A DNA stretch of 9,907 nt from NCBI GenBank assembly GCA_946482585.1, contig CAMLSI010000178.1, positions 1 to 9,907 on the forward strand. The letters run 5' to 3'. The stretch comes from an uncultured Lysobacteraceae bacterium. GTDB lineage: Bacteria; Pseudomonadota; Gammaproteobacteria; Xanthomonadales; Rhodanobacteraceae. The notes beneath the pieces are model-generated. The model ran no database searches. It was given only the letters and a program-made list of their open reading frames with translations, and was not told the DNA's origin. The translations under genes were made by a program, and so were the position numbers. Below, one piece after another: positions 7,332 through 7,965 of this stretch (positions are counted from its first letter, which is position 1; each line of letters begins with the position of its first letter).

Positions 7332-7575
7332 AGACCGGCCGACTTCAGCCGATTCGCCTGCGCGCGCAGGACGCCGACCGGATCGGACGCGAACAGGCCG
7401 CGCAACGCGAGCACCTGATTCACCTCGTCGAGATGGTTCCAGCCGTAGTCGTCGCGCAGCACGACGCCGAGATGGTTCGAACAGCGCCCGACGAGTCCGT
7501 CGTTCGCCTCGAAACCGAAGAACAGACCACCGGCGCCGAGCAGCGCATCGGACGCGTCGAAGATGTTGGATGACC
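7328..7575 (-). pseudogene. C-terminal fragment of subfamily I triacylglycerol lipase
   Basis: The last ~80 codons match the C-terminus of Pseudomonas/Burkholderia-type secreted lipases: [12 protein letters not shown], then [15 protein letters not shown], then [11 protein letters not shown] and ANRLKSAGL. By family knowledge, Asp in EANDG is the catalytic acid, His in NHLDE the catalytic base, and the Asp two residues later a calcium ligand. The nucleophile elbow (GHSxGG), the oxyanion loop, the signal peptide and about three quarters of the protein are missing. No lipase start or ribosome site exists. Upstream of about 7570 the sequence becomes LtrA in another frame. The fragment ends in a four-base overlap (GTGA) with the foldase gene, the native operon spacing, so the right-hand part of an intact lipase-foldase pair has been retained. 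The exact left limit of homology is uncertain by about 10 bases. Confidence 0.88.
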
Positions 7576-7965
7576 GGCCACGGCCCAGAGGAAATACGCC
7601 GTGCGCCCGACCTGCATGAACACGTAGGCGCCGGCGAAGCTCGCCGCGCGATGCCCGAACGCTTCCGGTATCGACGCCGACAGGATCAGACCGGCCAGCA
7701 TGAGGACCAGCAGCGACAGCCGCGTCGGAATCTTTTCCGGATCCAGCCAGTTCGTGACCCACGAGGTGTAGATCCAGACCCACCAGACCGCGAGCGTCAG
7801 CAGCAGGGTCTTGAACGCGCCGAGCAGGCTGAAGTCCTCGAGCAGCGAATGCGACAGCTGCGTGACCGCGAACACGAACACGAGATCGAAGAACAGCTCG
7901 ACCGTCGTGACTTTCTCGTGGCCGTGTCCGGCGCGCTCGCGCAGCAGATGGCTTCTCGGGGACAT
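7420..7965 (-). pseudogene. ltrA: Truncated LtrA (low temperature requirement A) gene fused to foreign frame
   Basis: The first ~132 residues (7570-7965) match the LtrA family of multi-pass membrane proteins: a basic start, then [36 protein letters not shown], and [18 protein letters not shown]. Four membrane segments are visible (about 22-41, 47-66, 83-100 and 108-129). Full-length LtrA proteins are around 380-400 residues with more helices, so roughly two thirds is missing. After GH at residue 132 the frame continues for only 49 residues of Ser/Thr/Arg-rich sequence (ending GTISTR, stop at 7420). That stretch is an out-of-frame reading of the lipase tail. ATG 7965 is well supported by GGAG at 7973-7976 (minus-strand reading), seven bases upstream. 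The family was named from a Listeria mutant unable to grow in the cold; its biochemical role is not settled. The truncated product is probably not functional. Confidence 0.88.

Follow-up and report, generated by a model that had tools for sequence, protein, structure and literature searches.

The ltrA-lipase junction

On the minus strand of the window (i.e., the whole stretch of 9,907 nucleotides analyzed here), the front of an ltrA gene meets the tail of a gene for a Pseudomonas-type secreted lipase at one point and in a different reading frame. This arrangement raises the question of whether the two genes were joined in a cell or only in the contig. The join was placed at 7563..7570 (minus strand) from the end points of the lipase-side and ltrA-side matches and from the lined-up parental sequences. 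The ltrA reading runs from an ATG at 7965 to about codon 132-134; codon 132 occupies 7572-7570, and the lipase codons run from 7570 (start at about 7570/7569). Blastn comparisons of the window with its relatives gave 13 loci with a lipase-side match. This match ended at 7569 in 10 of them, of which three are one and the same place in genome G001, and the remaining ends were at 7577 (L010), 7502 (L014), and 7166 (L006, where the contig ends). On the ltrA side, matches to the four genus-level relatives carrying ltrA ended at 7563-7574, and those to less closely related members of the family ended at 7579-7604.

An ungapped comparison in 20-nt bins with the ltrA genes of four relatives and the lipase genes of seven gave the same position. 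Identity to ltrA was 11 to 20 of 20 over 7690-7571 and 4 to 10 over 7570-7471, and identity to the lipase genes was 2 to 9 of 20 above 7571 and 11 to 20 below it in six of the seven loci. The seventh lipase locus (L046) scored 7 to 8 in the three bins nearest the join and 17 to 19 further on, as with a small indel. The switch from ltrA to lipase is abrupt at 7571/7570, far beyond chance. A preliminary description of this DNA had stated that both genes are cut at a single point, with strong homology on each side right up to the switch; both statements hold. It had also noted that the two halves are out of frame, which the codon positions given above confirm, and there is hence no fusion enzyme from this join.

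The bases CC at 7569-7568 fit the lipase parents as well as the two nearest ltrA relatives (G001 and G066); the ltrA DNA of G015 and G080 is more divergent at the join. In those lipase relatives that have the motif, LTN is followed by I/V/L and FDASDA, the Thr-Asn codons being ACC AAC or ACC AAT, and LtrA relatives at the same place read GHPTM (P0003), GHPNM (G001), or GHPAM (G066). In the ltrA frame, the bases of the window read Pro-Thr, as do codons 133-134 of P0003 after GH. The stretch common to both parents may therefore reach about 6 nt (range, about 2-6 nt), a length that is approximate because P0003 was compared at the protein level. In a search of 7300-7990, we found four short families of direct repeats and no inverted pairs. 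None of the repeats covers the join, in keeping with the earlier remark that no direct repeat is visible there.

The ltrA and lipase fragments

The ltrA fragment (7570..7965, minus strand) comprises codons 1-132 of about 400. Read straight across the join from the ATG at 7965, its frame extends to 181 codons, and the resulting protein, P0001, matches the Pfam LtrA profile (PF06772, low temperature requirement protein A) at 2.6e-45 (155.7 bits; cut-off, 31.9) over profile positions 1-131 of 356 only. This match extends about 14 residues beyond the join, to residue 148, and in tblastn searches some matches of P0001 to distant LtrA proteins also pass the join (residue 151 at most). We take these extensions to be alignment run-on, because DNA identity falls at the join. 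A full-length LtrA (about 400 aa) is not encoded here, the homology ending at codon 132-134.

A nearly identical protein, P0003, is a whole LtrA of 409 aa with four members, located on a JGI contig of 12,939 bases and 99% identical over the part compared. The window resembles it throughout the first 132 residues, with two differences (at residues 104 and 123), but about two-thirds of the protein is missing. Both variants are common, occurring in 49 and 20 of the best 120 homologues, respectively, and none of the 132 residues is rare (i.e., present in 2 or fewer of these homologues). Judged by its residues, the LtrA fragment shows no decay. Relaxed selection on the fragment, which would point to a real and older break, was considered and rejected, both differences from P0003 being common in homologues.

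The lipase fragment (7328..7569, minus strand) retains only the 3' part of a gene for a secreted triacylglycerol lipase, roughly its final 80 codons with the stop codon. Its product, P0002, has no Pfam match; in phmmer searches, it matches the C termini of solved lipases, the best being 1ex9 (residues 201-285; 2e-24). Two whole lipases, P0123 and P0124 (309/310 aa), are 98% identical to it over its 80 aa. The N-terminal part with the Ser region is absent. Whole relatives carry in this missing half the motif GHSHGG, which, by homology to S82 of 1EX9, we take to bear the nucleophile, so that the earlier statement that the lipase nucleophile is lost also holds. The aligned portion of 1ex9 spans D229 and H251, and the C-terminal part with the catalytic Asp and His region is thus present; PMC7046727 gives a catalytic triad for 1EX9 that includes D229, H251, and S82. 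Among the best 120 homologues, the G at position 65 of the lipase end occurs in none and the N at position 31 occurs in four, which is too little to use, but this end is not wholly without change.

The lipase stop codon is overlapped by the GTG start of an uninterrupted open reading frame (ORF) for a lipase-specific foldase (6327..7331, minus strand). It matches Pfam PF03280 at 1.6e-31 (110.2 bits) over profile positions 1-191 of 192, i.e., the whole domain, and its freedom from decay is judged from this full profile match and the uninterrupted ORF only. The placement of the lipase end directly before the foldase start, with the foldase ORF uninterrupted, is that of the Lipase/Lif pairs of the Pseudomonas-Burkholderia type and of the relatives described below. 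The window differs from such pairs in that about 230 N-terminal lipase codons, including those for GHSHGG, are absent and in that its foldase scores under the NCBIfam lipase chaperone cut-offs (best, 171.1 bits versus 285 for the lipase secretion chaperone equivalog). By these profile scores, the foldase of the window is a divergent member.

Genomic locations of the two loci in relatives

A foldase scan of genome contigs gave 73 pattern matches and one locus, in a Lysobacteraceae metagenome-assembled genome (MAG). At this locus (L001), a whole lipase ORF of 315 aa is followed by the foldase and then by a convergent APH-type kinase gene. The genus set consisted of the eight genomes of the genus to which this MAG belongs. 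All eight carry the foldase, and four carry ltrA; in each of these four, the two genes are on different contigs. In a broader family sample of 117 genomes, the foldase query matched 16 and the LtrA query matched 28, and the seven genomes in both lists again have the two genes on different contigs (the foldase match in G012 being weak). None of the genomes searched has the ltrA-lipase arrangement; a related genome with this exact in-line arrangement, which the preliminary description had named as a finding that would refute it, was thus not encountered. If ltrA and the foldase lie on one replicon, their minimum spacing, calculated from positions and contig sizes, is ~143 kb in G015, ~185 kb in G001, and ~433 kb in G080; because the genes are on different contigs throughout, these values are bounds that fix neither the real distance nor the strand. 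G066, with a contig of 7,404 bases and the foldase at a contig end, gives no useful bound.

The flanking genes follow the same division. A gene for a PD40 beta-propeller protein (8055..9365, minus strand; Pfam PF07676) lies upstream of ltrA in the window, and the PD40-ltrA order is kept in two of the four relatives with ltrA (G001 and G066); the sequence retrieved around ltrA in G015 and G080 did not show it. On the other side, the window encodes an APH-type kinase (2012..3073, plus strand; Pfam PF01636, 3.1e-51), and a kinase gene convergent with the foldase gene adjoins it in seven of the eight genus genomes (L001, L006, L011, and L045-L048) but not in the fetched 19 kb of G092. PD40-ltrA and lipase-foldase-kinase are thus separate blocks. 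In G001, ltrA is followed by a long ORF that is not a lipase and that, in our reading of its translation, is transporter-like. A PD40 orthologue (67%; L055, G051:C16:61762-63024) is present in G051, which has no LtrA match, and ltrA may therefore come and go next to PD40.

The composition of the two halves does not separate them, GC3 being 0.838-0.879 for the lipase end, the foldase, ltrA, and PD40. Three further ORFs were noted in the window. Between the foldase and kinase genes lies a gene of 1,027 aa (3163-6246, minus strand) that is beta-helix/chondroitinase-B-like with a weak kelch match; it has matches at an E value of 0.001 or better in four of the eight genus genomes, of which only that in G037 is strong (71%), located about 1.56 Mb from the foldase on the same contig. 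An ORF of 208 aa (359-985, plus strand) has no Pfam match up to an E value of 1 and no NCBIfam match; its GC content of 0.55 and GC3 of 0.61, versus a GC content of 0.64-0.72 in the other genes measured, suggest that it is possibly foreign. At 9464-9907 (minus strand), the end of an Ig-like/cadherin-type protein runs off the window edge.

Occurrence of the joined form

In the protein collection, the joined protein P0001 has a single member, on a single contig of 9,904 bases that is essentially this window. We searched for its tail using residues 96-181, with 31 candidates restricted to proteins of about 100-316 aa, and no other protein carrying it was found in this size range: the other six of the seven matches align through their LtrA part, to residue 129-151, without the tail, and the best of these six (P0243) continues as an ordinary LtrA. 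No match to the lipase end reached 100% identity among the best 120 of 1,768. The exact 32-base junction had no matches in viral contigs. A distant blastn search of plasmids returned 19 records covering at most 11% of the query, none of which spans both halves. Within the reach of these searches, the two blocks are unlinked in relatives, and the join was not found again.

Origin of the join

The preliminary description had proposed a single deletion between neighboring ltrA and lipase genes on the same strand. Both fragments do lie on the same strand and are truncated at complementary ends; however, no genome searched has the two genes close together, since they are on different contigs in all four genus genomes and all seven family genomes with both (one of them, G012, with a weak foldase match), and the three available bounds are ~143-433 kb. 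In G001, the ORF after ltrA is the transporter-like one rather than a lipase. With ltrA and lipase-foldase unlinked in relatives, a simple deletion could account for the join only if it took out a very long segment or if the region had already been rearranged, and we regard a local deletion as highly improbable. The same description had pointed out that an assembly join would give the same picture, and on this we agree. We give almost no credence to a conserved arrangement, to a fusion protein with a function, or to a product of programmed frameshifting: the ltrA frame does run on to 181 codons, but its tail and the lipase are in different frames, no second protein with this tail was found among those of about 100-316 aa, and both genes are whole elsewhere.

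The join is probably chimeric, having arisen within a short contig in library preparation or assembly. Three points lead us to favor this origin: the wide separation of the two loci in relatives, the lack of a second instance of the join in the searches made, and the small size of the contig. The whole LtrA (99%) and whole lipases (98% over 80 aa) on other contigs support it, as do the lack of decay in the LtrA fragment and the lack of a repeat over the join. In such a contig, two pieces of the genome of a Tahibacter-like bacterium, or of two close strains, would have been connected at 7570-7563, with PD40 and the start of ltrA on the right and the lipase end, the foldase, and the genes beyond on the left. 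A point against this origin is that assemblers would not ordinarily make a k-mer overlap error on a shared stretch as short as about 2-6 nt, so a physically chimeric fragment would be needed. Such a fragment or read would have been carried into a low-coverage contig, and the source cells would hold both ltrA and the lipase gene whole. We infer the absence of the join from the cell, the low coverage, the status of the record as a metagenome contig, and the genus name. The window resembles chimeric contigs known from metagenome assembly in that two conserved blocks meet at a single position where there is no long repeat, an arrangement seen on one contig. PMC10025935 cites 1.70-8.17% chimeric reads in nanopore sets; the rates in that study and in PMC7881036 are general and are not evidence on this contig.

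What also speaks against a chimera is the common lineage of the two sides (GC3 as given above; nearest genomes of one genus). With the same composition and relatives on both sides, nothing shows foreign material, and this also suits a real, very recent illegitimate recombination (a large deletion, inversion, or translocation) that joined the distant loci in a cell, an explanation that we hold to be possible but doubtful. Such an event would have ended ltrA after codon 132-134 and removed the front and promoter of the lipase gene, leaving an uninterrupted foldase without an adjacent client. In its fuller form, which we consider equally tentative, recombination at a very short microhomology would have broken both genes in one step, and the product would have been caught before decay. 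The CC at the join, together with Pro-Thr as LtrA codons 133-134, provides a possible microhomology; the genus can do without ltrA, which four of the eight genomes were found to lack; and the 1,027-aa gene between foldase and kinase suggests an earlier rearrangement of the neighborhood. Against recombination stand the occurrence of the joined form on one contig only, the lack of the 32-base join in viral contigs and of a plasmid record with both halves, the uninterrupted foldase ORF, and the bounds of ~143-433 kb, given which a simple deletion that leaves a viable cell is unlikely. Lack of decay and a single occurrence would equally be expected of a real event if it were very recent. An undecayed LtrA fragment, a lipase end with one residue not seen in 120 homologues, and an uninterrupted foldase fit a recent break or an artifact alike, as both would look like this.

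Implications

The locus calls for caution: undecayed fragments fused in a short contig need to be checked against relatives before they are read as gene loss. If the join is real, a single recent event would have disrupted two genes, and the case would be of modest interest for the origin of orphan foldases.
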